A stretch of 64,000 nucleotides of DNA from Cytophagaceae bacterium. GTDB taxonomy: Bacteria > Bacteroidota > Bacteroidia > Cytophagales > Flexibacteraceae. The stretch's first letter is position 1. Each line of letters opens with the position of its first letter. A model generated the notes under the pieces. It was given only the letters and a program-made list of their open reading frames with translations, did not search any database and was not told the origin of the DNA. The DNA lies in contig CANGYH010000006.1 in assembly GCA_947458545.1 (NCBI GenBank), positions 1 to 64,000 of the forward strand, read 5' to 3'. The position numbers and the translations under genes were made by a program. Below are positions 9,640 to 48,044 of the stretch, piece after piece.

Positions 9640-9774
9640 TCTATCAAGAGCTAATGAAAGGATGATGCGGCTCACAAGTTATAATATTAATATTTTAATA
9701 AATGATATAACCTTATAATATTAATGATAACTTGCAAAACTTGCAATACCAAGCCGCTCTATCAAGAGCTTATG
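9640..9774 (+). repeat. Paired 17-bp direct repeat upstream of the exported-protein operon
   Basis: TCTATCAAGAGCTAATG at 9640-9656 recurs as TCTATCAAGAGCTTATG at 9758-9774 (16 of 17 identical). The second copy overlaps the -7 element of the operon, and part of it is an inverted repeat (GCTCT, ATCA, AGAGC). The 100 bp between the copies is very AT-rich. The pair could be operator sites or a duplication left by an insertion; nothing in the sequence decides. Confidence 0.55.
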
Positions 9775-9778
9775 TTTG
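9771..9778 (+). promoter_or_regulatory. -7 element of the five-gene exported-protein operon
   Basis: TATGTTTG matches TAnnTTTG exactly, placing the transcription start near 9784, about 13 nt before the first ATG at 9797. No TTG lies at the canonical 19-21 nt upstream (the nearest, at 9741-9743, is 27 nt away), so expression may need an activator. Confidence 0.6.
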
Positions 9779-9796
9779 AAACTACGTTCAATCAAA

Positions 9797-11146
9797 ATGA
9801 AAATAGCTATTCTAACCCTTTTGGGGGTCTGCATAGGGGTCATCATCCCTGCATTTGGCCAAGACCAGATTAAGTACAGAAGAAGCTCTCTGCACATGGT
9901 GCTGGTGGAGTCTGGATCATATCCTAACAAGGAATCTGTGGTGAAGGCATATAAGACATATCCATTTCCGGAGAAGTACAATAAGCACTTGGTTGGCTCA
10001 GAATTTTTGCAGAGAAACGTCAGTGAGGCTGAGTTTAAGATGCTAGGGTTTTTAAAGGATACGCTGAAGAATCCGATGCTGATTACCAAGGCGGTTGCTC
10101 AATTGAAGAACGTCAAAATGGTAGGGCCAGAGGGCAAGTTTGGGGTTGTTCTGCCCAATAGCATGGACTCGATGCGCGCCAAAGTGGATCTGTCCATAAA
10201 AAAAGACCACTTGGCCAATCAGCTGTTGGCCAAGTGGTTTAATGCAGATGCGAAAGGGAACTTTAATACAGAACTGATATTAGAGCGAGGTAAATACTCA
10301 GCATCTGAGCAGGATAAAGAACTGGCCGCCAAGATGGCAACCTCGGCAGACTATCTCTATGATGAGGAGCTAATTGGCAATACCTTCACAGTATTCTGTA
10401 AATTTAAGTTTTATCCCAACGAGCCCGTTGCCCGCATTATTAAAGAGGCAGCTATGGTAGAGGTAAATAAGAATGCACAGAAGGGCGTGCCAGATTTTGT
10501 TACGCAGAAGGCAATCAAGGGCATAGAAGAAGTGTACCAAAGAACAAAGGAGGGCTACACGCTGATTACCACTACCCTTTTGTATAAGTTGAATTGGGAT
10601 AAAGCGACAGCAGATATATTTAAGCAGAGGTATATTACCGAGGCTGACCCAGTAAAGCGCAAGGCTTTTCTTGATACGACAAATCTGATTGGCCTCACGT
10701 TTTTGGGTGATCAAACTTCGACTACATTGGTTACCTTCAAGATAGGGGAAAAGCGCACCGAAGACCAAGTTATTGACCTGTCTGTAAAGCGTAATATTGA
10801 CAAAGTATTTGCCCAATTGCAGAAGGAGTATCAAGTCTTCCGCCCGGTTAGCCCAATTAGCACCAACAATCCGCTTACTGCCCGTATAGGACTAAAAGAA
10901 GGTCTTGAGCCAGGCCAAAAATTCGAGGTATTGGAAAGCCGCAAAGACAAAAAAACAGGCTTTTACACTTGGGCTAGCATAGGCACCGTAAAGGTTGATG
11001 ATAAGTTACCCATTTGGGATAACCGCATTGGTGCAGAAGAGGAAGGGGTAAACAAGGATGCGCAGGGCAATCCGCTGCCTCAGTTCACAACTTTTAAGGG
11101 GTCCAGCGATGCGCAGCCTGGAATGCATGTTATCCGACTTAAATAA
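9797..11146 (+). CDS. Exported conserved Bacteroidota protein, operon gene 1
   Basis: A 449-aa protein with a signal peptide (MKIAILTLLGVCIGVIIPAFG, then Q). ATG 9797 fits the signal peptide; the seven codons upstream overlap the promoter. I recognise the general pattern of an uncharacterised Bacteroidota family: 'ANQLLAKWFN', 'ILERGKYSASEQD', 'DEELIGNTFTVFCKFKF' in the middle, a 'TTLLYKLNWD' segment, and 'ARIGLKEGLEPGQKFEVLE' with 'WDNRIGAEEEG' near the C-terminus. I know of no function and see no catalytic motif, lipobox or sorting domain, so a periplasmic location is likely. It is the first gene of a tight operon with a DUF6175-like gene six bases downstream. Codon use is clearly AT-richer than in the flanking genes. 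Confidence 0.75.
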   Translation: MKIAILTLLGVCIGVIIPAFGQDQIKYRRSSLHMVLVESGSYPNKESVVKAYKTYPFPEKYNKHLVGSEFLQRNVSEAEFKMLGFLKDTLKNPMLITKAVAQLKNVKMVGPEGKFGVVLPNSMDSMRAKVDLSIKKDHLANQLLAKWFNADAKGNFNTELILERGKYSASEQDKELAAKMATSADYLYDEELIGNTFTVFCKFKFYPNEPVARIIKEAAMVEVNKNAQKGVPDFVTQKAIKGIEEVYQRTKEGYTLITTTLLYKLNWDKATADIFKQRYITEADPVKRKAFLDTTNLIGLTFLGDQTSTTLVTFKIGEKRTEDQVIDLSVKRNIDKVFAQLQKEYQVFRPVSPISTNNPLTARIGLKEGLEPGQKFEVLESRKDKKTGFYTWASIGTVKVDDKLPIWDNRIGAEEEGVNKDAQGNPLPQFTTFKGSSDAQPGMHVIRLK

Positions 11147-11152
11147 ATAATT

Positions 11153-12547
11153 ATGAGAGGCTTTTTACTTACCCTGGGCATAATAGCATGGAGCTTATTA
11201 TCTGCCCTGGCACAACAACCACCTGCTTACAGAACAGCAGGCAATGTAGAGCCTTATCAACAAGGTGCAGATGGAACCATCTTGCTTAAGGTTATTGCCA
11301 CAGGTGCAGATAGGGGTGAACTTGATAACAATGCAAGGCAAATCGCGCTCTATAACGCAATTTTTGTCGGCTATCCGGAGGCCAATGGTATCCCAAAGGC
11401 TGAGCCTTTAGCGAGGCCTTCTCTATATGACGAGAAATTAGCTGAGTTTGATAAGTTGATTACTGACCCGGCAACGCCGGCTAAGTACAACATGGTGGTA
11501 ACCAACCACCCAAGTATACCAATCTCTAAGGTAAGCAAGAAGCTTATAGAAGGGCCTGTAATTGTCGCTGTAAATACAAAGGCGATACGCCGGGATTTAG
11601 AGGAAAAGGGCTACCTGCCTAGTCTCGCTGTGTTAGGTTATAAGCCATCGGTGTGCGTGTTTCCGGATGAGGCCTGGTTGATAAAAAAGCAGTATTATAC
11701 TACAGTTGCCAACCAAGGAACGGAAGTTAAGATTTGGAAATACAGGGAAGCTGTGGTGGACCCTGAATTCAAAATAATCTCTGATAATTTTAAATCGAAA
11801 TTTGATAAGTTTTTTGAGATAAAGTCTATTGCAGATGCTTTGGATGCGCGGGCCAATGAAGACTTCGTAAACAACCAGTCTGCTGATGGCACATATCAAT
11901 CTGTTGAATCAAAGTTATTCTCCACGCTGTCTCCAGATTTGGTCATTAGGATTGATATCCTTATGGCTAAAGTTTCTGGAGGCAACAGGGCTACCATTAC
12001 ATTAAAGTGTATAGACCCTTTTAGTAGCATGGAGGTGATTAATGGGCAACCCATGACGAGAGACTCCCGCGAAGATGAGTTGAATACCACCAAGGCCTCT
12101 TTTATGGGAGCCGTGGATGACATTTACCCCCGAATTGTAGATTATTTCATAACAAGGGAGAGTAATGGTGCTCAGGGAAATTTATCGGTAGAGATTGCTG
12201 GCAATCTAGCAGGTACTTTAGATTTTGAAACACCGATTCAAGACAAGGACAAAGAGACTAATCTGGCTCGTATAATTAAAACGGTTTTGGCAAAGAACGT
12301 ACAGAAGGGGAAGAATGACGTCGTACGACATGAACTGGATGGCCTTGCAGACAAGACTCGGCTTGCTTACAAAAAGGTATTCATTCCGATTTATTATCTT
12401 GATCCTGATACAGAGACAAAAGAGAAAAATACTTTTGTAAATCTGGGCAAGGCTATACAATCTAAGCTAAAATCAGTTGGTATTTCAAGCACAGTAATTA
12501 GTTTGGGAATGGGTACCGTAAAGGTTCGTATTACAGAAAAGATATGA
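11153..12547 (+). CDS. DUF6175-like exported protein, operon gene 2
   Basis: A 464-aa protein with a signal peptide (MRGFLLTLGIIAWSLLSALA, then QQ). An N-terminal domain (about 45-165) starts 'DGTILLKVIATG' and ends 'VAVNTKAIRRDLEEKGYLPSL'; a version of the same domain makes up operon gene 3. A middle region (about 165-330) fits my memory of DUF6175: 'KPSVCVFPDEAWLI', 'NQGTEVKIWKYREAV', 'DALDARANEDF'. A C-terminal domain (about 335-464) completes it. The family is Bacteroidota-specific and of unknown function. It has no T9SS domain or lipobox, so it is probably periplasmic. Its stop overlaps the next start (ATGA), indicating translational coupling. Confidence 0.7.
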   Translation: MRGFLLTLGIIAWSLLSALAQQPPAYRTAGNVEPYQQGADGTILLKVIATGADRGELDNNARQIALYNAIFVGYPEANGIPKAEPLARPSLYDEKLAEFDKLITDPATPAKYNMVVTNHPSIPISKVSKKLIEGPVIVAVNTKAIRRDLEEKGYLPSLAVLGYKPSVCVFPDEAWLIKKQYYTTVANQGTEVKIWKYREAVVDPEFKIISDNFKSKFDKFFEIKSIADALDARANEDFVNNQSADGTYQSVESKLFSTLSPDLVIRIDILMAKVSGGNRATITLKCIDPFSSMEVINGQPMTRDSREDELNTTKASFMGAVDDIYPRIVDYFITRESNGAQGNLSVEIAGNLAGTLDFETPIQDKDKETNLARIIKTVLAKNVQKGKNDVVRHELDGLADKTRLAYKKVFIPIYYLDPDTETKEKNTFVNLGKAIQSKLKSVGISSTVISLGMGTVKVRITEKI

Positions 12548-13002
12548 AGTATATACTTATTACCCTTTTTAATGTTATCACCTTTGCGGTGGGTGGGCCT
12601 AAGCACTTTCAGGTAGCTTATCCACAAGAAATTGCTTGCATCACCCAAGGTGTTGATGGGGTTCAAACTCTTGCTATTTGGTGTGGAGGGCGTGTTAATC
12701 AAACCGACTGCAGCGAGGCTCAGAAAAGAGTCGTTTCCGCAATTATTTGGGATGGTATCAAGCTGTCAGATGTTTGCAGCCCTGTTCCGTTGGTTATAGA
12801 TCCCAGTGTGAGGCATAATAATATGGCCTTCATATCTAAATTCTTTGCAGAAAAAGGTGATTACACGAAATTCTCTAAAATCGTCACTCGAAGCGGTTTA
12901 AGGCAAGCGTGTAACAGCCAGCCTCATAGGATTATGGTGTCGGTAGAGCGCCCTGCGCTACATACATATTTGATTTCTAGGAAAATACCATCTCGCTTGT
13001 AA
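12544..13002 (+). CDS. Small exported paralogue of the DUF6175 protein's N-terminal domain, operon gene 3
   Basis: A 152-aa protein beginning MKYILITLFNVITFAVGG, a weak signal peptide without an obvious cleavage site. The rest aligns by eye with the N-terminal domain of gene 2: 'GVQTLAIWCGGR' against 'DGTILLKVIATG', then 'AQKRVVSAIIWDGI' against 'ARQIALYNAIFVGY', and 'MVSVERPALHTYLISRKIPSRL' against 'IVAVNTKAIRRDLEEKGYLPSL'. Four scattered cysteines suggest possible disulphides in the periplasm. Start and stop overlap both neighbours (ATGA and TAATG), so it is a genuine coupled operon member. Function unknown. Confidence 0.72.
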   Translation: MKYILITLFNVITFAVGGPKHFQVAYPQEIACITQGVDGVQTLAIWCGGRVNQTDCSEAQKRVVSAIIWDGIKLSDVCSPVPLVIDPSVRHNNMAFISKFFAEKGDYTKFSKIVTRSGLRQACNSQPHRIMVSVERPALHTYLISRKIPSRL

Positions 13003-14099
13003 TGAATGGTCATATGCGTATTAGTTTGTTCTTTTTACTGCTGCTTTCCCAGCTAAGTGTAAAATTGGCTGCGCAGCCTAGTGACTTTGATCGAATACCT
13101 GTCAGCACAGTGCTTGTAGGAGACATTGATAAAAAGTCTGATGCTGTGCGGAACGCCCTATCTGTTAAACTAACATCCATAGCTAACGCTAACGGTTTGC
13201 TGGCCAGCAATATGATTGACAATAGGTTTGTCATTGCAGCTAATGTTATAGAAGAAGCAAAAGATATCTCTGCCACAACGCCTACCATGTTCGCTTATAC
13301 GTTGACCGTGAATATAAAAATGGGCGATGGCTTGACGGGGACTGTTTACAACTCAACTTCTATTTCTGTAAAAGGATTAGAAAGGTCAGAGGAAAAGGCA
13401 TATCTATCTGCCATTAGGAGCATTGCGGTAGACAAAAAAGAGATAAAGGAATTCGTTGCAGTTTCAAAGGCCAAGATTATAGACTATTACGTTTCAACGT
13501 GTGATGCTACTATTTCTAAGGCTAGGTTGTTTAGTACTCAAAATAAGTTTGATGAGGCATTGTTCGAGTTGTCAGTTATTCCTAATGTCAGTTCAGTTTG
13601 CTTTGAGCACGTGACCAAGGCCACAGAGCAAATTTTTAAGGATAAGGTAGAGTATGAATGTGCAGAAATTATTAATAAGACAGAATTTGACGTCAATAGT
13701 GGTAATTATGATTCAGCGTTTATAAGGCTTGCCTTAATACCAGTTGATGCTTCTTGTTTTGTGCGCGCCAAGGCCTTAACCGTTCAGGCCGCCAGCTTAG
13801 TTTGTCAGAACGCGATGAACAAGGCTCGCGCGGCATGGTCTGGCCATGATGTGGATGCTGCGGCGTCGGCTTTGGCTGAAGTTAAAGCTGGTTCTACTTG
13901 CGATGCTGATGCTCTGGCCTTGGTGGCCGAAATTAAGGCTTACAAACAAGCCCAAGAGCAAAGAGAGTGGAAATTCGAGCTTAAAAAGCAAGAGGATGCC
14001 GTAAAGCTTGAAGCTGCTCGAATTAAAGCTGCCAGGGACATCGGAGTAGCATATGCGAAGAGCAGACCTAAAGTAATTTATCGAATAGGTTGGTTTTGA
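13002..14099 (+). CDS. Exported protein with Cys-bearing helical repeats, operon gene 4
   Basis: A 365-aa protein with a signal peptide (MRISLFFLLLLSQLSVKLAA from an internal ATG at 13014; TAATG coupling supports 13002). The N-terminal part (about 25-140) includes 'NRFVIAANVIEEAKDI' and 'VNIKMGDGLTGTVYNS', resembling a conserved Bacteroidota family of unknown function. Residues about 165-320 form helical, TPR-like repeats, each with a Cys (STCDATISKAR, FDEALFELSVIP, YDSAFIRLALIP, AASALAEVKAGSTC). The C-terminus is a charged helix rich in Lys, Glu and Ala. It is probably a periplasmic scaffold-type partner of genes 1-3. Confidence 0.72.
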   Translation: MNGHMRISLFFLLLLSQLSVKLAAQPSDFDRIPVSTVLVGDIDKKSDAVRNALSVKLTSIANANGLLASNMIDNRFVIAANVIEEAKDISATTPTMFAYTLTVNIKMGDGLTGTVYNSTSISVKGLERSEEKAYLSAIRSIAVDKKEIKEFVAVSKAKIIDYYVSTCDATISKARLFSTQNKFDEALFELSVIPNVSSVCFEHVTKATEQIFKDKVEYECAEIINKTEFDVNSGNYDSAFIRLALIPVDASCFVRAKALTVQAASLVCQNAMNKARAAWSGHDVDAAASALAEVKAGSTCDADALALVAEIKAYKQAQEQREWKFELKKQEDAVKLEAARIKAARDIGVAYAKSRPKVIYRIGWF

Positions 14100-14111
14100 A
14101 CATTGCAACCG

Positions 14112-14564
14112 ATGGTTTTTGACGAGTTATTAATCTCTGCAATTAGAGAAGACATTGTAGCCAAATCTGGCTTGAGAATGCAATCCTTCGCTGACTGCAC
14201 ATCGTTCTGCATACTCTTGGAGAGAGAGAGATTATCACTATCGTCTTACACCATTGCTAGGATTTTCGGCATAATTAAAACCAATTCCAAACCATACAAT
14301 AGCTCTATTGCTATCTTGGTTAACTATTTGGGCCACTCCACAATATACGAGTATATAAATAATAAATTTAATAATCCACAGTTTAATATTGCGGGTCAAT
14401 TTCCTTTATATGTAAATAATAATCCGCCCTTTGGCGAGGGTGTACCTCTTCAAATTTACTCCATTTCCGCAAATTCAGTTAGGCCTATAGATATATCGAA
14501 ATATCCAATAAATGATCTCGCTTCTCTTTGTCCAGAAAAACTCTTAGTAATAGTATTAGAGTAA
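14112..14564 (+). CDS. Small cytoplasmic protein with Bacteroidota helical N-terminal module, operon gene 5
   Basis: A 150-aa protein without a signal peptide. ATG 14112 is preferred to TTG 14103. Residues 1-85 (CTSFCILLERERLSLSSYTIARIFGII, then AILVNYLGHSTIYEYI) recall an all-helical module found at the N-terminus of many Bacteroidota proteins, in which a 'SxxTLxRxFG' helix precedes a 'TLxxLAxYLGY' helix. That module has a helix-turn-helix look, so nucleic-acid or regulator binding is possible but unproven. The C-terminal half has no recognisable domain. It follows gene 4 by 12 bp and shares the operon's low GC. It is the only non-exported member and may be a regulator or an unrelated passenger. 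Confidence 0.55.
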   Translation: MVFDELLISAIREDIVAKSGLRMQSFADCTSFCILLERERLSLSSYTIARIFGIIKTNSKPYNSSIAILVNYLGHSTIYEYINNKFNNPQFNIAGQFPLYVNNNPPFGEGVPLQIYSISANSVRPIDISKYPINDLASLCPEKLLVIVLE

Positions 14565-18819: not shown

Positions 18820-20506
18820 ATGAGATAATTTTACAAGCTCCCTTTGGCTGGGCTGGTTGCCGTATCCTTGCTGTTTTCTGGTTGTGGCAGTATGGTTTCT
18901 GGCAATGGCCAGAAGGTCACCATCAGCGCTGGCACCCCAAATGCCGAGATATACCACAACGGCAAAAAAGTGGGCACCGGCACAGCCCGCATCAAAGTAA
19001 AGCGCACCGAGAAGGTGCAAGAGTTCGTCTTCAAGTCAGACTCGCTCAAGCCACGCCGGGGCACGCTCGGCCTGGAGTATCGCCGGGGCACGCAGCATCT
19101 TAACCTGATCTTGCTGCCAACGCTATACGGAGCCATTTATGGCTACTACATAGACAAAGCCAACAATCGTACCTACCGCTATCCCTCTACGCTGGTGGTG
19201 CCGCCGCTGGTGCAGGTGCCGCGCCGCAAGGCCAACGAGAAGTACATCCTCGTAAACCAAACCTCGGCCTTGCTCAAGTCAAAAGACACCTCTACGCTTA
19301 TTTACCTGGGCGTGCGCAACTACAAAAAGCGCAAGGTGTATCAGGCAGAGCGTTTCGATGAGTCTATCGACTACTCCAACACCATCTACGAAGACCAGCT
19401 CAACGACCTACTCAAAAAGTCTGGCTATGTAGATACCGTCCGCAAGCTCTTCCCCACCGTCGGCTCTACGCTGTACATAGACTCAAAGCTGACGCGCTTC
19501 CGCGAGGAGGTCATCTTCCCGAATGCCATCAATGGCAGCAAAAACGGCATGCGCGCCTCGGTAGCCACCCGCGCCACGGTAGAGTGGAAGGTGCTCGACG
19601 CCTACAAGCGTCCGCTCTTCAGCCATACGTCTAATACCGTTTCAGATTTCTTTTTGATTAAAGACCTGGGCGATAAGGACATCCTCAAAGAGACCATCCT
19701 GGCTTCTGCAGCCGATGCCATCGAGTATGCTTTGCTAGACCTGCAGGCCCAGCCTGCCTTCCAGAAGGTGAAAATGATGGAGTCTGGCGCTGACGCCGCC
19801 AAAGCCTACGACTCTATGGAGCGCATTGTGCTGGCCAAGCCCACCCCTCGGCCCGACGCCAAAATGAGCGACATGCTCAACAGCAGCGTTACCATACAAG
19901 GTAGGCGAGGGCCACGGCAGCGGTTTCATCGTCTCTAAAGACGGTTACATTATCACCAACCTGCACGTCGTAGCCGGAGAAGACGGCGGTGTACCCGAGG
20001 TCATCCTGCACGACGGCGAGAAACACAAGGCCGAGGTAGTACGCTCTAGCGAGGCCATGGACCTGGCCCTGCTCAAGATCAAGGCAGACAACCTGCAACC
20101 CTTCTTGCTAGAGAAAGAACTGGCCGACATCGGCACCGAGGTGTGGGCCGTCGGTACACCCAGGAGCATCGAGCTTGGGCAGTCCGTCTCTAAGGGCGTA
20201 ATCTCAGGGATGCGCAAGGCAGAAGATAAAGAAATGAACTACATCCAAACGGATGCGGCCGTCAACCCTGGCAACTCGGGCGGTGCCCTCATCACCAAAG
20301 ACGGGCGTGTGCAAGGTGTAGTTTCTATGCGCCTCACCCGTGCAGAAGGTGTCGGCTTTGCTTTGCCTGCCCCGCAGGTCTTCAAAGGGCTAAAGCTGGC
20401 CTATGCAGACGAGGCCAAGGCTGAGGCACCCGCACCAGCTGCGGCCCCCGTGGCGGCCCCGGCTGCGCCTGCCAAGGCCAAAGCCCCTGCCAAAAAGGGC
20501 AAGTAA
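18820..20506 (+). pseudogene. Trypsin-like (S1C) serine protease lipoprotein, broken by a nonsense codon and a frameshift
   Basis: Joining the pieces gives a lipoprotein of about 560 residues. The start is ATG AGA TAA: after a stop at codon 3 the frame continues FYKLPLAGLVAVSLLFSGC, a lipobox signal peptide, so codon 3 was probably AAA. The N-terminal domain (to about residue 360) is PEGA-like at first (GTPNAEIYHNGKKVGTG) and otherwise unknown. At about 19901-19905 an extra base shifts the frame. Without it, VTIQG continues GEGHGSGFIVSKDG into a trypsin-fold protease with all three catalytic residues: His in TNLHVVAG, Asp in MDLALLK and Ser in NPGNSGGAL. The C-terminus is a Pro/Ala/Lys-rich tail. 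Initiation at TTG 18844 could bypass the stop but would lose the charged n-region. Sequencing error is possible at either site; neither is in a homopolymer prone to miscalling. Confidence 0.75.
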
Positions 20507-27543: not shown

Positions 27544-29307
27544 TTAGTATTCTACTACAACCATGGTCCAATACTTTAGGTATGGCACCACTAGATTAAT
27601 GTTGTTGCCTGTTTGAGTGAATGAGAGCTCTTGAGCAGCCCCTTTAGAAACATCGGGGCTAGCCATCCAGATGCGGCGCACTGGGCCGGTTACAGCAACG
27701 GTGAGGGGTAGGTTGGTTACCAGTTCTGGCGCTGCTTGATTGCCACCATCATCTCGCCAATCCATGTGGCGGGCACCTTTGTAGTTCAGCAGGTGCAAAG
27801 CCATACGGTTACCAACCGACCTGCCAACAGTAGATACCTGCCCTTGGATGGCTGGCCACGAGCCTACTTGTACCGTGCTAGAGGACGTAGAAACCGTAGG
27901 AAATACCAAACTGCCCCCATCTCTCAACAGGTTTTGATATCCGGTTAAAAAATCGTAGTAGACCGGCATAGCCGATTGTAGGTCGGCATCCATAGTTAAG
28001 TTAGAATTAGGGAAGTACTCGCTACAAAGCATATGCTCTCCCATCTCTAAGTGGCTGCCACCAAAGGCGAAGATGACCGCGTTCGTCATCAAGACGCCAG
28101 GCGTATTAAACGTACCTCGGCCTGCTACTGCCTTGTTGTAGTTCATGTAAGCAGCAAGCACAGAGTTTTTTGTATTGCTACTAAAGTTGTTATTGTCTCT
28201 GATGACACGGCTAAGGTCTGTATAGGAGGAGGCAAAGTCGTTCCATACTTCTGTATAAAGGAAATCTGGTATGGGAGAAGCAATTGATCTCTGGCCAAAG
28301 TTGTTTACAGCATTCATCACGATTCGCTTATCAGGCCTGGCTGCATGCATCGACTGGATAAAGCTGCCATATGAATTGTCTAATGCCAAAGGGCGGCCAT
28401 TATAGGTATAAACGGTGCCACGTGGGCCTAGCTGATCCATATGAAAGCCATCAAAGGGGAGCCCTGCGTATACCTTGTTGTTTTGGCCTACCATATAAGC
28501 TTGCCATTGGGGATTAGATGGATCTAACAGGTAAATGGAGCTACGGAACGGCGGAGTTGGCAGCCTATGGAGATCCTTATTGGTGCGTTGTGCATCTGTA
28601 TAGATGTACCAGGCCTCTTGTACTCCATCTGCGGCGGCATCGTTCCAGGCACCGAAAACCAGATTGTAGAACATCGATTTCATCCCTGCAGCCCGAGCAG
28701 TCTCGATGTAACGCTTTACGGTGTTGTAGTAGACGTCGTTCCCTCCAATTTCCTGATATATCAGCGTCGGGTTGACAGGATCACCAGCAAAAGGCTGATG
28801 ATGCTTGTACTGCCAGTCGTAAAATTGAATACCATTGATGTGGTATCGGTTCAGTTTCTTGATTACAGCCGCAATCTCATCCTGAGAAATATTGCCGAAT
28901 TTGGTTAGAAATCCATATCTAGGGAACTTGGCCCAATCAGAAGACACATCTACAGCAATAGTGGCATCAACTTGCTCTTGGCCATTGGGTGCATTTTTAT
29001 AAAGCTCTACTAAGTAGCCGGTAAAGTCTGTCGTGGGGGGTACCCACGTCCAACTAGGAGCTGTAATGACTTCTTCCTTTATCACGGCACCCAAGTGCTT
29101 GTAGCGTACTTTGATAGCCGCCGTAGGCGTTGGGCTAATAGTAAATGTGACCGTTTGGCCGGGGCTATAGAGCGCCTTTTCGGTAGAAATGGTGGTGGCA
29201 GCAGGGATCGGGCTTACAGGCCCGAGCGAATTATTTTCTGCCTTTTTACAACCCGCCCATGCATGAGACAAAAGCAAGGTTAAGGCGAGGGATTTAAGGA
29301 CCTTCAT
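27544..29307 (-). CDS. GH66 family endo-dextranase-like lipoprotein
   Basis: A 587-aa surface lipoprotein predicted to hydrolyse alpha-1,6-glucan (dextran). The start at 29307 gives a lipoprotein signal peptide (MKVLKSLALTLLLSHAWAGC, lipid Cys20). An N-terminal Ig-like domain (about 40-120) leads to a (beta/alpha)8 domain with GH66 hallmarks: 'FPRYGFLTKF', 'LNRYHINGIQFYDWQYKHH' and 'LPFDGFHMDQLGPRG'. By family comparison Asp291 in the last motif is the nucleophile and Glu353 in LYTEVWND the acid/base; their spacing agrees with streptococcal dextranase. A C-terminal beta domain completes it. The start lies 18 bp past the SusD stop, so it is part of the susCD operon. A cycloisomaltooligosaccharide-forming activity is possible but less likely. 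Confidence 0.88.
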   Translation of the reverse strand: MKVLKSLALTLLLSHAWAGCKKAENNSLGPVSPIPAATTISTEKALYSPGQTVTFTISPTPTAAIKVRYKHLGAVIKEEVITAPSWTWVPPTTDFTGYLVELYKNAPNGQEQVDATIAVDVSSDWAKFPRYGFLTKFGNISQDEIAAVIKKLNRYHINGIQFYDWQYKHHQPFAGDPVNPTLIYQEIGGNDVYYNTVKRYIETARAAGMKSMFYNLVFGAWNDAAADGVQEAWYIYTDAQRTNKDLHRLPTPPFRSSIYLLDPSNPQWQAYMVGQNNKVYAGLPFDGFHMDQLGPRGTVYTYNGRPLALDNSYGSFIQSMHAARPDKRIVMNAVNNFGQRSIASPIPDFLYTEVWNDFASSYTDLSRVIRDNNNFSSNTKNSVLAAYMNYNKAVAGRGTFNTPGVLMTNAVIFAFGGSHLEMGEHMLCSEYFPNSNLTMDADLQSAMPVYYDFLTGYQNLLRDGGSLVFPTVSTSSSTVQVGSWPAIQGQVSTVGRSVGNRMALHLLNYKGARHMDWRDDGGNQAAPELVTNLPLTVAVTGPVRRIWMASPDVSKGAAQELSFTQTGNNINLVVPYLKYWTMVVVEY

Positions 29308-29324
29308 ATGAGTAGCGGCAAACA

Positions 29325-30803
29325 TTAATAGCCAGGGTTTTGTGTCAGGTTAGGATTCGCGTCAATTTCCTTTTGCGGAATGGGCAAGAGCAGCTGCGCC
29401 GGGCTCGTGACGTTGGTCTTACCAATTGATCGTAAGAAGTCCACACCGTATTGGCCGCCATCCAGGCGTTGTAGGTCAAACCAGCGATCGCCCTCAAAGG
29501 CTAGCTCAATGCGGCGTTCACGGATGATTTTTTCTCGCATTTCATTGCCAGATAACCCCCGGACATCAGGCAGGCCGGCTCGCCTACGCACTTGGTTGAG
29601 AGGCTCCTCGGCTGCAGCAGAGTTGCCAAGAGCGTTCAGGGCCTCTGCCTTCATGAGCAATACATCCGCCCATCTCAGAATGGCAAAGTTGTTAGAATTA
29701 GTGTTATAGTCTGGAGATACAGCTTTAGTTACTAAGAACTTCCGCACATTATAGCCGGTTGCAGAATAAGAGCTACGATAAATCAGCCTGTCGAAGGGAG
29801 GGCAGCCCTGATACAAAATTGTTTTATCCTTGCGGAGGTCTCCGGGCTCGTAACTGTTTACAAATTCTGGCGTTGGTTGTACCCAACCATATCCACCCCC
29901 GACAAAATTTGCGTTCCTAGGGCCCATAAAAGTGCTCATCCAATTGGCCTGGTTATCATTGCCAAAAAAGTCGGCATTAGTTCTTCCATAATACTCGACA
30001 TTGCAGACTACTTCTGGGTTAATCTCCTTGCTATGATTGAAATTATCCGAATAATCTGGGCATAATGAGTAACCGCTCATTTGGTTTATGGCAGTTAGGA
30101 CTTCCGGGTACTCGGCAAGGGTGAGGTGCACTTTGGCAAGCAAGCCTAGCGCAGCGCCTTTAGTGGCACGGCCATGCTCAGCATTAGGATAGGTGAGAGG
30201 CAATGCCTCTGCTGCCAGATTCAAATCTTGTTTAATCTGGGCATAAACCAAAGCCTTCGGGGCGCGGCGAGGCCGCAGATCATCGCCGTAGTACAGGGGT
30301 GAGGTAATCAGGGGCACATCTCCGAATACACGGACCCAGTTGAAGTAGTATAAAGCCCTCAAGAACCTTGCCTCGCCCAAAATCCTGCTTTTTAGACCTT
30401 CGTCCATATTAATAGAGGGCACCTTCTCCAAAACCAGGTTGCAGCGCAGAATGCCAGGGCCAGGGCCACGCCACACGTCTAATGCAGCAGCATTATCAGG
30501 GAAAATTGTAAAGTTTGATATCTGCACGGTTTCGATACCATCATCTCCGCCGCCGCCGCCGGTGAGGGCATTGCCAGCCCATATATCTGATGTCCAAAGC
30601 CTAAAGCCATAAAGCTTGGGCCATTGCAACACCTGATAGCAGCCATTGATGCCTGCAATAGCGTCCTTATCAGTTTTCCAGAAGTTGGCAGAGTTTACAG
30701 AGTCTCGCGGAGCCTTGTCCAGAAATGTTTTATTACAAGCGCAAACCAAAGCGATTGTTGATAGCAACCAAATCCGGAGGGCAGACGTCTTAAGAGTTTG
30801 CAT
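29325..30803 (-). CDS. susD: RagB/SusD family outer-membrane glycan-binding lipoprotein
   Basis: A 492-aa SusD homologue, the lid and binding lipoprotein of a SusCD importer. It has a lipoprotein signal peptide (lipobox VCAC, Cys23). 'FLDKAPRDSVNSANFWKTDKDAIAGINGCYQVL' is the classic N-terminal SusD pattern. TPR-like helices follow ('GEARFLRALYYFNWVRVFGDVPL', 'ATKGAALGLLAKVHLTLAEY'), then the C-terminal 'ILRWADVLLMKAEALNALG' and 'IIRERRIELAFEGDRWFDLQRL' motifs. It lies 24 bp downstream of susC, as is usual for a pair. By context the ligand is an alpha-glucan, probably dextran. Confidence 0.95.
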   Translation of the reverse strand: MQTLKTSALRIWLLSTIALVCACNKTFLDKAPRDSVNSANFWKTDKDAIAGINGCYQVLQWPKLYGFRLWTSDIWAGNALTGGGGGDDGIETVQISNFTIFPDNAAALDVWRGPGPGILRCNLVLEKVPSINMDEGLKSRILGEARFLRALYYFNWVRVFGDVPLITSPLYYGDDLRPRRAPKALVYAQIKQDLNLAAEALPLTYPNAEHGRATKGAALGLLAKVHLTLAEYPEVLTAINQMSGYSLCPDYSDNFNHSKEINPEVVCNVEYYGRTNADFFGNDNQANWMSTFMGPRNANFVGGGYGWVQPTPEFVNSYEPGDLRKDKTILYQGCPPFDRLIYRSSYSATGYNVRKFLVTKAVSPDYNTNSNNFAILRWADVLLMKAEALNALGNSAAAEEPLNQVRRRAGLPDVRGLSGNEMREKIIRERRIELAFEGDRWFDLQRLDGGQYGVDFLRSIGKTNVTSPAQLLLPIPQKEIDANPNLTQNPGY

Positions 30804-30827
30804 AAATTTTAGTTAGAGGCAAGAAGT

Positions 30828-33800
30828 TTAGATGCTGATGTTAAGGCCAAACACATAGGTTCTTGTAACAGGGTAGGTGCCCAGATCTATGCCGGTATAG
30901 CCAGAGATTTCTGGGTCAAAACCGGTGTACCGCGTGAAGGTGAGCAGATTTTGCGCCGACGCATAAAATCTAGTTGTGCCAATGTGTACCTTTTTCAGTA
31001 AATTGGCCGGGAGGCTGTAACCCAGGGTTACGTTTTTAATCCGCAGGTAGGAGCCATCTTCAATAAATCTGTCAGACGGGCGGGTATTGTTGTTAGGATC
31101 GCCATAAATGGCCCTGGGCATGCTGTTGCTTGTTCCCGGCCCTACCCACCGATTAAGCGTGGCTATAGTTTGGTTGTAGATAACCTTCATGCCTTCGGTA
31201 GAGATTCTATTGGCATTAAATATTTGATTACCTTGCACACCCTGTACGAACAGAGAAAGGTCGAAGCCTTTGTAGGTAAAGGCGTTATTTAATGCGTAAA
31301 TAAATCTCGGATTTGGATTGCCGATAAAAGTTCGGTCTTTATCGTTGATTATGTTGTCGCCGTTAAGATCTCTGAATTTTACATCGCCAGGAGCCGTACC
31401 ATTGGCAGGGCCTGTGCCCACAACTTGCCTGGCATGATTATTTACTTCATCTTGCGATTGAAAAATACCGTCTGTTACAAAGCCATATAAGCTATTTACA
31501 GGTTGCCCAACTACAGTCCGGGTAAGGCTATAATTAAGACCAATGTTCCCACTGATAACAGGGGCCGTATCAGCCAAGCTGGTGACGTTATTCTGGTTAG
31601 CGCTGAAATTGAAGCTGGTCTTCCAGCTAAGGGCCCCAGTTAGGTTGTGGGTAGAGATTGAGAGCTCTACGCCCTTGTTTTCCATACCGCCAGTATTAAC
31701 CAAGGTGCCGCTTTCGTTATAGCCGGTTGAGATTGGTGTGGCCTTGGGCATAATCATACCATTTGTAACTCGTAGGTAGGCATCCGCCGTAATCGCAATG
31801 CGGTTTTTAAGTAGGCTAACATCAGCACCGATGTTGGTTTGTGATGTACTCTCCCACCTAATGAATGGGTTTGGCATTGAGAAGGGCACCACAGAGCTCA
31901 CCAGCGTGTTATTAAAGTTGTAAGAGCTTGTGGGTAACACGTTGGCAAAGGGGTAATTTCCAATTTCTTGGTTTCCTGTCATACCCCAACCAGCACGTAG
32001 CTTCACCTCTGAGAATATATCGCTATTTTTCAGGAATGCCTCTTCTGTCAACCGCCAAGCCACAGAGCCAGACGGGAAAATGCCATACCGTTGTCTGGGC
32101 CCAAAGCGAGACGAGCCGTCTCTTCTGATAGTGCCTGTGAAGAGATATCGGCCTTTGTAATCGTAATTGGCCCTGGCGAAGATGGAGAATATGGCCCAAT
32201 CTGAAAAGCTACTGCCGGCGGTCCAGTATTTCGGATTGGCATTGCTAAGTAGCTGCGCTTGGTCGCTGACAAAATCTTGCCCAGAGGCAAACAGATTTTT
32301 AAATGTGTTTGACTGTGCACTTGTACCTGCCACCATCATTATGTGATGGTCTGCTGATGGCCTTAGGTCGTAAGTGAGAATATTATCCCAAAGCGTAGTC
32401 AGGCTACGGTTGCCGCCCTCAGAAAGAGAAGACATAGGCTGCGCAATGGGTTTGTAGTCGTAGGCTGGAGCCCATGTGCGCGTAAACCAAAAATTGTCTT
32501 GTAATCCTATTGTTGAGCGAAGGCGGAGATTTGGCAACAGAGCAGCTTCTGCATACAGATTGCCAATGATATTGTAGCCATCCACGGTGTTGCGGATTAG
32601 GTTTGCCGTTGCTATTGGATTGCGGATATCTCCTTCCCAAAGTCCATTTCTAGGTCCATTGTAGTTGCCGGCAGAGTCAAGAACAGACAATGTTGGGAGT
32701 GAGCGCATGGCATCTAGCAAGGAGTATGCGCCGCTTGGTTTCTCGTCGTGGTTCAGCGTAACGTTATTCCCAAATTTGAGCCAGTTTGTGACCTGATTGT
32801 CAGCGTTAAACTGCAGCGTGTAACGGCGGTATGCGGTATTGAGAACGATACCCTGCTGGTTGAGCACACTGCCTGAGACGTAATAGTTTGACTTATCTGT
32901 AGAGACAGAATAGGCAGCGGTAATACTCTGCATGGGGGCGGGGCGCAGCATTTCGGTTAGCCAGTTAGTGCCTCGGCCCAAAGAGGCAGGATTTGCAAAG
33001 GCCGGGTTCAAATTGCCATTACCGGCGTTGGTAAGCATCTCATTATGCAGATTGGCAAATTGCCCGGCATTTAGCATAGGAATGATGCTTGTGGCTTGTT
33101 GCAAACCAGTGTAGCCTGAAATAGAAAAGCCAGTTTTCTGACCCTTGCCACGCTTGGTTGTGATAATGATAACCCCATTTGCCCCCCTGGCTCCGTAAAT
33201 AGCTGATGCCGAGGCATCTTTTAAGACCTGTATCGATTCAATGTCCTCCGGGTTCAAATTCTGCAAGCCGCTCATTACGGGGACGCCATCTATCACAAAC
33301 AGTGGTGTGGTGCTGTTTAGGGTACCTACACCACGCACCAAAAAGATAGGGTCGTTGCCTGGTGCTCCTTGGCTAATAACCTGCAAGCCTGCTGCACGTC
33401 CTTGCATGGCATCTCCAATAGAGGCGACGGGCAAGTCTTTGATTTCTTTGACGTTGATGGGAGCAACAGAACCTGTTAAATCTTCCTTTCTGACTTGTCC
33501 GTATCCCACAACCACTACCTCATCGGCCAGCATTACGTCTTCAGCCAAGACGGCATTAACCACAGTCTGCCCCTCGGCGATGGCAATCTCTTGAGAGACG
33601 TATCCCATCATAGAAAATACTAGCACCGGGGCTTGTAAATCGTTAGGCAAAGTAAGGCTAAATATCCCATCAACATTGGTTGAAACACCAATGGCCGGGC
33701 TGGTCTTTATATAAATATTGACCCCAGGCAAGCCGTTGCCTTGTGCATCTTTAACCCGGCCTGTAATTACCCACTTGGCATCTGGTGGCCTTGGTACCGC

Positions 33801-34217
33801 TGCACTCAAAGTCTCTGGGCCTTGTGTGCTGCCCATGGTTGCACCAACAGAACCTGGAGAGCCAGAATAGATGGGCCAGTTAGCTGGCACAACGATAAAT
33901 TCTGTCTTGCTGATTTGATCTATCCGCAGGTGGTTGTCGCGCAAGACCTGCTCTAGCTTGCGGTTGCTGTAGACATCCCCTTTAGGTGATACCCGAATTT
34001 TGATGCCTTTTACAACTGAGGCCTCATAAGCAATATTGACTTGGTTGCGCTCTCCGTAGGTATGGAGGTACTCTGAGAGGAGCATTTGCTCTGCCTGATT
34101 GCTTGGCTCGGCTTGTACGGATGGTACAGCAGCCCACACTTGTTGGCCGTAGGCGCCAAAACCGCTTGCCCATAGCATTAGCAGCAATCCTGCCAACGCA
34201 GGTTTGGATTTAAACAT
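30828..34217 (-). CDS. susC: SusC/RagA TonB-dependent transporter with STN signalling domain
   Basis: A 1129-aa outer-membrane transporter for oligosaccharides. After the signal peptide comes a secretin/TonB N-terminal (STN) domain (about 45-115, with 'IAYEASVVKGIKIRVSP' and 'LEQVLRDNHLRIDQISKTEFIVVP'), which contacts a FecR anti-sigma factor. Then a carboxypeptidase-regulatory-like domain ('ITGRVKDAQGNGLPGVNIYI'), a SusC-type plug ('VVVGYGQVRKEDLTGSV', 'IFLVRGVGTLNSTTPLFVIDGVP', 'ATSIIP' region) and a 22-strand-type barrel. The STN domain together with the flanking FecR and sigma genes shows that this transporter also senses its substrate. It is transcribed with susD and the GH66 gene. Confidence 0.95.
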   Translation of the reverse strand: MFKSKPALAGLLLMLWASGFGAYGQQVWAAVPSVQAEPSNQAEQMLLSEYLHTYGERNQVNIAYEASVVKGIKIRVSPKGDVYSNRKLEQVLRDNHLRIDQISKTEFIVVPANWPIYSGSPGSVGATMGSTQGPETLSAAVPRPPDAKWVITGRVKDAQGNGLPGVNIYIKTSPAIGVSTNVDGIFSLTLPNDLQAPVLVFSMMGYVSQEIAIAEGQTVVNAVLAEDVMLADEVVVVGYGQVRKEDLTGSVAPINVKEIKDLPVASIGDAMQGRAAGLQVISQGAPGNDPIFLVRGVGTLNSTTPLFVIDGVPVMSGLQNLNPEDIESIQVLKDASASAIYGARGANGVIIITTKRGKGQKTGFSISGYTGLQQATSIIPMLNAGQFANLHNEMLTNAGNGNLNPAFANPASLGRGTNWLTEMLRPAPMQSITAAYSVSTDKSNYYVSGSVLNQQGIVLNTAYRRYTLQFNADNQVTNWLKFGNNVTLNHDEKPSGAYSLLDAMRSLPTLSVLDSAGNYNGPRNGLWEGDIRNPIATANLIRNTVDGYNIIGNLYAEAALLPNLRLRSTIGLQDNFWFTRTWAPAYDYKPIAQPMSSLSEGGNRSLTTLWDNILTYDLRPSADHHIMMVAGTSAQSNTFKNLFASGQDFVSDQAQLLSNANPKYWTAGSSFSDWAIFSIFARANYDYKGRYLFTGTIRRDGSSRFGPRQRYGIFPSGSVAWRLTEEAFLKNSDIFSEVKLRAGWGMTGNQEIGNYPFANVLPTSSYNFNNTLVSSVVPFSMPNPFIRWESTSQTNIGADVSLLKNRIAITADAYLRVTNGMIMPKATPISTGYNESGTLVNTGGMENKGVELSISTHNLTGALSWKTSFNFSANQNNVTSLADTAPVISGNIGLNYSLTRTVVGQPVNSLYGFVTDGIFQSQDEVNNHARQVVGTGPANGTAPGDVKFRDLNGDNIINDKDRTFIGNPNPRFIYALNNAFTYKGFDLSLFVQGVQGNQIFNANRISTEGMKVIYNQTIATLNRWVGPGTSNSMPRAIYGDPNNNTRPSDRFIEDGSYLRIKNVTLGYSLPANLLKKVHIGTTRFYASAQNLLTFTRYTGFDPEISGYTGIDLGTYPVTRTYVFGLNISI

Positions 34218-34278
34218 AACTGGTAAAAAATTGGTGCTTGGTAAAACTTATCAGAGCCAGATAATAGGCCGACGCAAA

Positions 34279-35361
34279 TCAGAGATTGGTAAATAAGATC
34301 GTGTCTCCTCGCTCGGTTACACGTGTCGAGGTGATCTTGCTGATGGCGCTGAGCATGGTTTTCAGGTCTCCGGTTGATAGCGACCCGCCAAAGCGCTTTG
34401 ACGGTAGGCTTGGGTCTGCAAAAAGCACTCTTTTGCCATAGCCTCTTTCAATCATCTCGCTCAGCTGCGCCAAGCTGGTATTGTCGAGCTCGACACGGGG
34501 CTCTAGCCAAGATGTATAAATGGGAGCCCAAACGATTTGCCGGGTTACCTTTTCACTACCCTTTTCTTTGATGGCTACCTCGTTTGGTCTTAGTGTGAAT
34601 AAGGTTTTTCCGCTGGGCATCGCTACGTCTACCTTGCCCTCCTTGAGCATTATTTCTGTACGAGACTTATCGGTATGCACCATAAATCTTGTGCCTTTAA
34701 CCACAGCCTCTAGATCTCCGGTATGGACGATAAACTTGACCACACCGCTGCTTGATGTTTGTTTGGCAACCTCAAAATAGGCCTCACCTTCTAACCAAAC
34801 TTCTCTGGGCTGGCCACTTGCCCAGTTGTTGCCATAGCGTAAAATAGACTGCTTGTTGAGTATAACGCGGCTGCCATCAGGCAACACTACCTTGTTGCGT
34901 TCGCTTACTTGGGTTGCTACTACCTTCAGGCGGTCGTCTGTGCCTTGGTCTAAGGCCAAATAAATCCAAGAGGCAGCTAATACAACTACGGCAGCGGCAG
35001 CAACTGCCCACCGTGCTACGTTAAAGTTGTACCAAACACCTGTGGGCCGGGCAGATGCAGAAGGTGTAACCTTGCTGCGGCGATGCTTTCGCAAGGCTTG
35101 CAGATTTAGGGTGGCCTCTATCTCTGCATGGATGGCGCGGATATCAGCCTCTTCTCTGTCCGTTAAGGGAGCGGCAACCGTGGCTACCAATTGCCTGGCT
35201 AGCATAATCTCATCTGCTAGATCAGGCAGTGCTTGCCTCACAGCCTCCCAGTGGGCATCCAACGCTGGCGTTGGGCGCTTAACCCATGCCAAGAAAAGAC
35301 CGTCCTCGGCAAAGTCGAGAGCTGTCCAATTTTTGTAGTAAGATGCGCTAGGTGTTTGCAT
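34279..35361 (-). CDS. FecR-family transmembrane anti-sigma factor
   Basis: A 360-aa inner-membrane anti-sigma factor. Residues 1-115 are cytoplasmic and would bind the sigma factor; one membrane helix (about 117-139, WAVAAAAVVVLAASWIYLAL) follows. The periplasmic FecR domain ('NKVVLPDGSRVILNKQSILRYG', 'REVWLEGEAYFEVAK', 'TRFMVHTDKSRTEIMLKEGKVDV') leads to a C-terminal DUF4974/STN-like domain ('ELDNTSLAQLSEMIERGYGKRVLFADP'). Its neighbours are the STN-bearing SusC and a divergent ECF sigma factor. It should hold that sigma factor inactive until SusC binds its glycan. Confidence 0.94.
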   Translation of the reverse strand: MQTPSASYYKNWTALDFAEDGLFLAWVKRPTPALDAHWEAVRQALPDLADEIMLARQLVATVAAPLTDREEADIRAIHAEIEATLNLQALRKHRRSKVTPSASARPTGVWYNFNVARWAVAAAAVVVLAASWIYLALDQGTDDRLKVVATQVSERNKVVLPDGSRVILNKQSILRYGNNWASGQPREVWLEGEAYFEVAKQTSSSGVVKFIVHTGDLEAVVKGTRFMVHTDKSRTEIMLKEGKVDVAMPSGKTLFTLRPNEVAIKEKGSEKVTRQIVWAPIYTSWLEPRVELDNTSLAQLSEMIERGYGKRVLFADPSLPSKRFGGSLSTGDLKTMLSAISKITSTRVTERGDTILFTNL

Positions 35362-44257: not shown

Positions 44258-44974
44258 TTAATAAATCCACTTATCATGCTTTACAGGGAGCTTGTTAAGC
44301 GTTGCCTTAACTTCTTTCCAATTTGGCATATACGTATCCATTATGTTTACAAAGCGCTCATTATGTGAAGGCTCTAAAAGGTGAACTAGCTCGTGGACAA
44401 TAATGTACTCGAGGCACTCCCTAGGCTTCTTTGCCAGCTCAGTATTTAATCGGATGGTTCGTGTCGATGGATTGCAACTACCCCATTTCGTCTTCATATG
44501 TTGTACATAGAAGCGCTCCAGAGATACCCCTAAGGCCTTTGACCATTTTTCAATTATTGGATGTGCGGCAGTCCGGACATGAGCACGGTAATATTCTGCC
44601 ACTGCTTCTTTCAGATTTTCAAGCTCAGAAGAGGGCCTGATGAAAACCTGGAGGTACTTACCAGAAATCTGGACCTTTGCAGCGCCTTGGTGCTCTAATC
44701 TTTGGAGTAAATACCGTCTTCCCCATAAATAATGGGACTCTCTATTAAGAAATTCACGAGGGGCCTCTCTTGGCTGTTCCTTGAACTTGCGGCGCTGACG
44801 TCGAATCCAGTCTAAACGTGTGATAGCGAACACTCGGATGGTATCCAGCTTCATCCTATGAGGGGCTGAAATTCTAACAGCACCTTCAGGAGGATAAACA
44901 CTAAGGTGTATGTGCTTGATGTCTTTGTAGCTCACCTCTGCGGTGAACTCACCCAAGTCAATTACCTCTGCCAT
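44258..44974 (-). CDS. YgjP-like zinc metallopeptidase-domain protein, last gene of the defence operon
   Basis: A 238-aa protein of the YgjP/DUF45 (WLM/SprT-like) family. The zinc site is intact: 'EYIIVHELVHLLEPSHNERF' has the HExxH motif and a downstream His. Upstream are the family motifs 'QHMKTKWGSCNPSTRTIRLN' and 'RLDWIRRQRRKF'. The start at 44974 shares one base with the hsdR stop (TAATG), so it is translationally coupled to hsdR; the 26 extra codons upstream lie within hsdR. YgjP genes are frequently found at the end of type I restriction operons; their role there is not established. Confidence 0.88.
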   Translation of the reverse strand: MAEVIDLGEFTAEVSYKDIKHIHLSVYPPEGAVRISAPHRMKLDTIRVFAITRLDWIRRQRRKFKEQPREAPREFLNRESHYLWGRRYLLQRLEHQGAAKVQISGKYLQVFIRPSSELENLKEAVAEYYRAHVRTAAHPIIEKWSKALGVSLERFYVQHMKTKWGSCNPSTRTIRLNTELAKKPRECLEYIIVHELVHLLEPSHNERFVNIMDTYMPNWKEVKATLNKLPVKHDKWIY

Positions 44975-47900: not shown

Positions 47901-48042
47901 AGGCCAGCTCTTCCTCGATGTTACTGTTACCTACCCGGTCGGTATAGTTGCCCAAGTATTGGTAGCCCAGCTTTTGGTTAAACAGCTGGATGATACGTTG
48001 CTGGGTTTTGCGCTCAGGTTGGCCTGCGTTGCCTAGTTCCAT
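44974..48042 (-). CDS. hsdR: Type I restriction endonuclease subunit HsdR
   Basis: A 1022-aa restriction and translocation subunit. The N-terminal nuclease domain has the PD-(D/E)xK motif: Asp137 in RRPDLVLYINGIAVG, then Glu151 and Lys153 in LELKRS. The SF2 translocase follows with Walker A TQGSGKS (residues about 278-284), 'VVLTDRDELDKQ', the DEAD-type box DECHRTQSG, 'GFTGTPLL' and 'LLTGFDAP'. The C-terminal helical part docks to the methylase. It would cleave DNA lacking the HsdMS methylation mark after ATP-driven translocation. It starts 2 bp past the DUF262 gene stop, fifth in a six-gene unit. Confidence 0.96.
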   Translation of the reverse strand: MELGNAGQPERKTQQRIIQLFNQKLGYQYLGNYTDRVGNSNIEEELASAALQRRGYTSAQISRALYLLKTEANNATRRLIDNNQEVYKLLRYGVDIKLEAGKPTETIQLIDWKNPENNDFAIAEEVTLKGNAERRPDLVLYINGIAVGVLELKRSTVSIGDGIRQSLSNQMPEFNPWFFSTIQFVFAGNDSEGMRYGTIGTGEKYFLTWKEDEADNSTFKLDKYLTKMCSKERLLELIYSFVLFDGGVKKLPRVHQYFGIKAAQERVRRRQGGIIWHTQGSGKSITMVLLAKWILENNPKARIVVLTDRDELDKQIERVLKDAGAVPKSDSIRATSGRELLDMLSRPTPRLLCTLIHKFGLRGKDGYAELSADLAAGHSHAVGEVFVFVDECHRTQSGKLHEQMKQIMPNAVFIGFTGTPLLKKDKKTSMEVFGSYIHTYKFNEAVEDQVVLDLIYEARDIDQRLSSQEKIDAWFEAKTRALNDWQKDELRKTWGTMQKVLSSKSRMDRVVADIIFDFSTKPRLSDERGNAILVASSIYEACKYYEILQRTEFKGKCAIVTSYNPQSKDVTLEEIGANTETDKQYIYNTYTALLRDVAATGNMSKTEAYEEEAKRLFIKEPANMKLLVVVSKLLTGFDAPPCTYLYIDKSMQDHGLFQAICRVNRLDGDDKEFGYIVDYKDLFKKVENAIAVYTSELDNLDGEVTSEILLKDRLTMGKERLDDALEKLSQLCEPVELPRSDLEFIHYFCGNTEIPTDLEEHAPQRVALYKATVSLIRAYANIKDEMEVAGYSLADCARIDRQVEHYLRVREVIRRASGEELDLKPFEADMRHLIDTYIQADEPRKISPFDDIGLLDLIVNSGIAAAIEGKLSDLSGNQDSIAETIENNVRSKIIKDKLTDPAFYESMSALLDEIIAARRAKAIEYAEYLKKIAELAKRVQQGKGDETPRSLDTPGKLALFNNLGQDESLALEVDKALKAARPDGWRNVLPKESVIKRCLFEVLGNKDQVERIFLVIKAQSEY

Positions 48043-48044
48043 GG

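Follow-up and report, generated by a model that had tools for sequence, protein, structure and literature searches.

A conserved four-gene operon of exported proteins in Bacteroidota, with FlgT- and CsgG/PelC-like predicted folds: a candidate outer-membrane ring or collar outside the flagellum

Introduction

What do five closely spaced genes of one strand, four of them predicted to encode exported proteins, make together? The question is raised by positions 9771 to 14564 of a 64,000-nucleotide stretch of Cytophagaceae DNA (the window, by which we mean that whole stretch). A preliminary description, made from the sequence alone, had proposed one periplasmic complex or a stress/defence system, acquired as a block. 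Here we report that genes 1-4 are a conserved operon of Bacteroidota, and we propose that this four-gene set is probably an undescribed envelope machine. We found no literature on such a four-to-five-gene operon: a family model exists for DUF6175 alone, and our search found no paper naming DUF6175.

Five co-directional genes in the window

All five genes lie on the forward strand. Gene 1 (family G1; 9797..11146, +) encodes an exported protein of 449 aa with an FlgT-like predicted fold, in a short form, and gene 2 (11153..12547, +) an exported protein of 464 aa in which a small domain, SM-A (residues about 1-160), is fused to DUF6175 (residues 164-464). Gene 3 (SM-B; 12544..13002, +) encodes 152 aa. 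Gene 4 (family G4; 13002..14099, +) encodes an exported 365-aa protein with an alpha/beta N-terminal part, TPR-like helical repeats and a conserved C-terminal Trp, and gene 5 (14103..14564, +) a cytoplasmic protein of 153 aa. The start of gene 1 is the ATG at 9797, with a further in-frame TTG at 9776, and that of gene 5 is the TTG at 14103, with an ATG alternative at 14112. The successive junctions are 6 bp, an ATGA overlap, TAATG and 12 bp, the last shrinking to 3 bp with the TTG start of gene 5; the co-directional arrangement and these junctions are as first described.

Inspection of the N-termini likewise bore out the claim that genes 1-4 are exported, gene 3 weakly: signal peptides are clear in genes 1, 2 and 4, weak and without a lipobox in gene 3, and absent from gene 5. 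An NCBIfam search of genes 1-5 for T9SS sorting domains was empty, again as had been stated, and genes 1, 3, 4 and 5 match no curated family in Pfam, NCBIfam or PADLOC. Upstream, a TAnnTTTG box (TATGTTTG; 9771..9778, +) fits the Bacteroidota -7 promoter consensus and had been taken for the promoter of the five genes. The putative box is present, but the motif occurs 31 times in the window against 35.9 expected, which is chance level; because it is not enriched, the box alone is no promoter evidence.

Genes 1 to 4 are a conserved operon of Bacteroidota

A genome scan with the gene 2 sequence alone found no relatives. With an alignment of a DUF6175 subset the scan returned 238 relatives in named genomes, from which 80 loci were kept. 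In 73 of these 80 Bacteroidota loci the genes G1-SM(1-2)-DUF6175-G4 are contiguous, in this order and on one strand, a proportion that applies to one DUF6175 group and not to all DUF6175, since the scan was seeded with one motif type. Of the other seven loci, four are truncated at a contig end, two have no G1 in place and one has neither G1 nor SM there. Intergenic gaps are mostly below 30 bp. The operon is found in Flavobacteriales, Sphingobacteriales, Bacteroidales and Chitinophagales. Some genomes have remote relatives of genes 1, 2 and 4 next to one another, arranged as gene 1, a small protein, DUF6175 and gene 4. Profile comparison (hhalign) detected no homology between the four families.

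The preliminary description had named neighbourhood analysis as the test that could refute a system; families 1, 2, 3 and 4 were found to recur as one operon, and this favours a system. The proposed five-gene unit stands for families 1-4, which recur together across Bacteroidota, and not for gene 5, which has no relative in the related loci and none in plasmids. On this distribution gene 5 looks like a passenger outside the conserved operon.

The system is patchy in the phylum, since the profiles match few genomes of a phylum-wide sample of 296 (DUF6175, PF19672, in 13; G1 in 4; G4 in 4; SM in 9). Several distant DUF6175 genomes contain no recognisable G1 or G4. Apart from local order among close relatives, no further family has a fixed place beside the operon in the loci examined, and their neighbourhoods contain no conserved partner, cargo, synthase or modification gene.

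Individual loci vary around this plan. Four (L078, L079, L081 and L084) carry two G1-family genes beside one operon, the first three with one longer and one shorter copy and L084 with two long copies flanking the operon. Some Bacteroidales-type loci (L067:10999-13003, L115:10710-12664, L134:2865-4130) are extended after G4 by one or two exported genes; one product has about 430 aa and begins like LPP20 (E=0.014 in L067), the other is small, at about 190-215 aa.

The TPR-like character of G4 is suggested by internal repeats detected with hhalign and by weak TPR-type matches of its relatives. In one genome (L038:4637-5968, -; genome G015) a G4 homologue ends not in the TPR-like part but in a C-terminal stretch whose translation shows, by eye, two caspase-like motifs, YAGHG and DACFSG; the product would be caspase-like and exported, with DUF6175 as its neighbour.

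Gene 2 as a fusion and gene 3 as a paralogue of its N-terminal domain

The earlier suggestion of a DUF6175-like gene proved right for gene 2, which matches PF19672 over residues 164-457 (E=1e-23; 84.3 bits against a curated cut-off of 23). The operon's conserved small protein (SM) shares homology with gene 3 and also with gene 2, in its first 160 residues. In bit scores, the N-terminus of gene 2 is closer to SM-A (41.8) than to SM-B (13.7), and gene 3 is closer to SM-B (66.1) than to SM-A (50.2); blastp also matched gene 3 to the SM family. Judged by these comparisons, gene 3 is a paralogue of the gene 2 N-terminal domain, whose usual place is upstream of DUF6175. Because of these scores we read the window as a complete set rearranged, with SM-A fused to DUF6175 and SM-B behind it, an order seen in 0 of the 80 loci. 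Among loci with two SM genes, a lipobox is present in 3 of 39 first copies (SM-A) and in 20 of 39 second copies (SM-B).

In a separate lineage (f47), SM and DUF6175 are likewise fused (SM::DUF6175, about 410-475 aa), and an LPP20-domain protein comes next. Such a reduced form, in which the LPP20 protein is about 450 aa long, occurs in another class (L164-L171; e.g. L165:5518-8222, L169:6454-10975), where some of the LPP20 proteins have a weak G4-like C-terminus. In L169, whose genome (G427) encodes FlgI, a G1-like gene lies upstream of the fusion. We also considered SM itself as an LPP20-type protein and rejected this: hhalign to LPP20-type domains was not significant, and LPP20 (PF02169) gave no match for gene 3 and none listed for its relatives.

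The predicted DUF6175 fold resembles the GNA1162/PelC/CsgG/TolB superfamily

Structures of genes 1 and 2 were predicted with AlphaFold and compared with the PDB using Foldseek. The gene 2 model was built from 46 DUF6175 relatives with DUF6175 rows only, since the joint SM and DUF6175 alignment misaligned; it is mostly at pLDDT 85-96 from about residue 161, and the SM-A part is of low confidence. The first 11 PDB matches of DUF6175 are GNA1162, PelC, the PelBC complex, CsgG and TolB, with probabilities of 0.89-1.00, so that the model places DUF6175 with this superfamily at the fold level, domain-wise and partially. Foldseek TM-scores are 0.16-0.21 by query length, and by target 0.31-0.57 for the CsgG/PelC group and about 0.2 for FlgT; because the alignments cover part of the chains and the scores are low, our claim is limited to kinship of domain folds and does not extend to equivalence. 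Sequence-profile matches to the PDB were chance-like throughout and were set aside.

Independently of the model, hhalign aligned DUF6175 with CsgG-type proteins of variant loci over 168 columns (P=2.8e-4). In these variant loci the neighbours of DUF6175 and G4 are CsgG/LpoB proteins (PF03783, E=2.8e-12), and in others they are LPP20 proteins (PF02169, E=1.3e-7 to 5.9e-10). Gene 2 itself has no PF03783 profile match in Pfam.

The CsgG-type proteins of the variant loci also match LpoB (PF13036; E=5.5e-12 and 3.5e-9), a result that could point to a regulator of peptidoglycan synthesis in which DUF6175 and CsgG/LpoB-like partners would activate a cell-wall synthase from the outer membrane, as LpoB does. 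Among the structural matches of DUF6175, however, LpoB is a weak one, at rank 43 (E=0.43, probability 0.38), and four to five conserved partners exceed the need of an activator. We consider such a role improbable.

A partial match of the predicted gene 1 fold to the H-ring protein FlgT

The gene 1 model (AF2; pLDDT 85.3, pTM 0.84) has only two Foldseek matches with E<0.001, and both are FlgT: 3w1e (E=4.9e-4) and 8z5n (chain 0 of the LPHT-ring entry; E=6.1e-4), with probabilities of 0.98-0.99 and partial alignments at TM-scores of 0.16-0.20. The next match has E=0.19. Without recourse to the model, hhalign related the gene 1 C-terminal domain to the CsgG-type C-terminal domain (P=5.7e-4). FlgT families are not among the Pfam matches of gene 1 or of 45 relatives, and genes 1-4 have no Pfam match to FlgT, FlgO or LPP20. 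A ribosomal eL14 match in the stretch of gene 1 next to the signal peptide (E=1e-4) was discarded as unfit for an exported protein and absent by fold.

A search for FlgI, the P-ring protein, gave no match in the genome that contains the window and was positive in three control genomes. As far as FlgI tells, its absence from the genome excludes a flagellar role for the operon.

A collar might instead belong to the T9SS/gliding machinery and do for that rotary machine what the H-ring does for the flagellum. Of 48 operon-bearing genomes, 47 encode GldL, among them the genome of the window, but GldL is also present in every same-class and same-order genome listed in the background sample, which makes the association uninformative. 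We therefore draw no T9SS link from a protein near universal in the class. The presence of PF19672 in only 13 of the 296 sampled genomes implies that the T9SS generally does without the operon, and we regard an accessory T9SS collar as unlikely to be its role.

Long-form relatives of G1 carry a C-terminal outer-membrane barrel (PF13505, E=2.2e-4), which the common form and gene 1 of the window lack. This barrel bears on the main rival of a collar, a dedicated PelBC/CsgG-like outer-membrane exporter of a polymer or protein. There, a DUF6175 ring would funnel the cargo, G4 would give TPR contacts, and the pore would be the long-form G1 barrel or an unlinked one. Such an exporter would account for the folds shared with PelC and CsgG, for the TPR-like G4 and for the barrel of the long forms, and in the PelBC exporter twelve PelC lipoproteins form the periplasmic ring (PMC12141448). 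Yet the operon has no conserved cargo, synthase or modification gene as a neighbour, the common G1 form has no barrel to offer, and DUF6175 falls outside PF03783. We judge an exporter rather unlikely, while ranking it first among the alternatives.

Composition and likely lateral acquisition

The five genes are AT-rich, as first noted: their GC content is 36-45% (GC3 0.36-0.51) in a genome of about 60% GC, of which sampled regions are mostly at 53-62%. Against 124 reference ORFs, the codon usage of genes 2-5 is more extreme than that of every one, and the codon usage of gene 1 more extreme than that of 98%; the composition of the adjacent DNA ligase gene is ordinary for the genome. Low GC also occurs elsewhere on the contig, near 49% over about 21-69 kb, so the block is not unique in this respect.

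That second segment comprises window positions 21000-64000 and about 5 kb beyond (L055:1-5000). By inspection, a SusC/SusD-type locus there includes a FecR-like regulator and a glycoside-hydrolase-like protein (27544-35361), and a type I restriction system is accompanied by a DUF262-like gene (44974-55031). Further along, again by inspection, a PorP/SprF-like protein (55244-56377) adjoins a repeat protein of 2474 aa whose C-terminus is of the gliding type (56380-63804). Outside this segment, a putative lipoprotein of 364 aa (18844-19938, +), with LLFSGCGS near its N-terminus, matched nothing here.

The gene 1 tree puts the window protein in a 6-row clade (support 100/99) with sequences of Chryseobacterium, Flavobacteriales, Prevotellaceae and Bacteroidales, while same-family copies fall in the other deep clade, together with the long forms; its nearest relative is 43% identical. 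In the gene 4 tree the window protein sits on a long branch of unresolved position, with same-family copies outside its 30-row group. At the insertion site the ligase is present in relatives, with no RluA-type flank within 1.5 kb beside it. Because gene 1 clusters with other orders and the composition is foreign, the operon was likely acquired laterally, and the earlier proposal of acquisition as a block is to that extent a likely one.

The same foreign composition and the mixing of orders in the gene 1 tree, along with the type I restriction system further along the window, might be taken to favour a mobile stress or anti-phage defence system. Genes 1-5 nevertheless have no PADLOC match and no recognisable enzymatic or nucleic-acid domain, every conserved part is exported, the loci have no conserved defence neighbours, and neither a scan of viral contigs nor searches of plasmids found a relative. 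We consider defence very improbable. Of the two proposals first made, the complex retains its basis in a recurring exported four-gene system and the stress/defence role is unsupported.

Discussion

We infer that genes 1-4 encode an exported multi-protein ring or collar complex of the outer membrane outside the flagellum, a reading to which we give a probability of roughly 0.45 and which we favour over an export gate. The four products would form one complex at the periplasmic face of the outer membrane, in which the FlgT-like gene 1 protein and the DUF6175 half of gene 2 may oligomerise into a ring or collar. The small proteins SM-A and SM-B would serve as adaptors, the latter being often lipid-anchored in other species, and the TPR-like gene 4 protein as a scaffold linking the ring to a partner. 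Most likely the complex would act like the H-ring or the PelC ring and stabilise the outer membrane around another envelope machine.

A membrane-associated ring is supported by the SM-B lipobox in 20 of 39 loci and by the long-form G1 barrel. In the window a membrane anchor is not evident, since genes 1-4 have no clear lipobox and gene 1 has no barrel, and anchoring in this strain is presumed. The ring reading is weakened because the fold match is partial and domain-level and the fold is shared by TolB and LpoB, which form no ring, and because the operon lacks a conserved neighbour that could be its partner or cargo. More speculatively, and with some doubt, non-flagellated Bacteroidota may possess a laterally exchanged ring machine of FlgT-, CsgG/PelC- and TPR-type parts that is a relative, or even a source, of the H-ring and serves a different envelope apparatus.

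With the operon, DUF6175 gains a testable fold and a fixed partner set. If the complex forms a ring comparable to the H-ring or PelC, it would be a collar of the outer membrane that belongs neither to flagella nor to known exporters, with a bearing on the origin of H-ring parts.

Among known systems, the best single fold match of DUF6175 is GNA1162, a lipoprotein of N. meningitidis (4hrv; E=1.2e-4, probability 1.00). The two are 10% identical and differ in build: GNA1162 is small and a lipoprotein, while DUF6175 lacks a lipobox and contains a second domain. The PelBC exopolysaccharide exporter shares with the operon the PelC fold (probability 1.00), a TPR-like partner and, on long-form G1, an outer-membrane barrel. 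PelC is, however, a lipoprotein of about 140-160 residues in the matched structures, DUF6175 has about 300 residues with its second domain and without a lipobox, and the operon is not accompanied by conserved Pel-type synthesis genes. To the CsgG curli pore and the CsgG/LpoB family (PF03783, PF13036) DUF6175 is linked by fold (probability 0.99) and by the profile alignment given above, and true family members adjoin DUF6175 and G4 in variant loci; DUF6175 differs in having no PF03783 match, and a curli subunit gene was not seen.

The H-ring of Vibrio and relatives is made by FlgO, FlgP and FlgT (PMC6375700). In Aeromonas, loss of FlgT destabilises the polar flagellum (PMC4960245), and in H. 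pylori the FapH ring shields the outer membrane while the flagellum rotates (PMC11756786). The operon differs from the H-ring in its extra SM and TPR-like parts and in belonging to a genome without a FlgI match. It resembles the H-ring in encoding exported periplasmic proteins together, in the LPP20-type partners of its variant loci, and in FlgT as the only significant structural match of gene 1.
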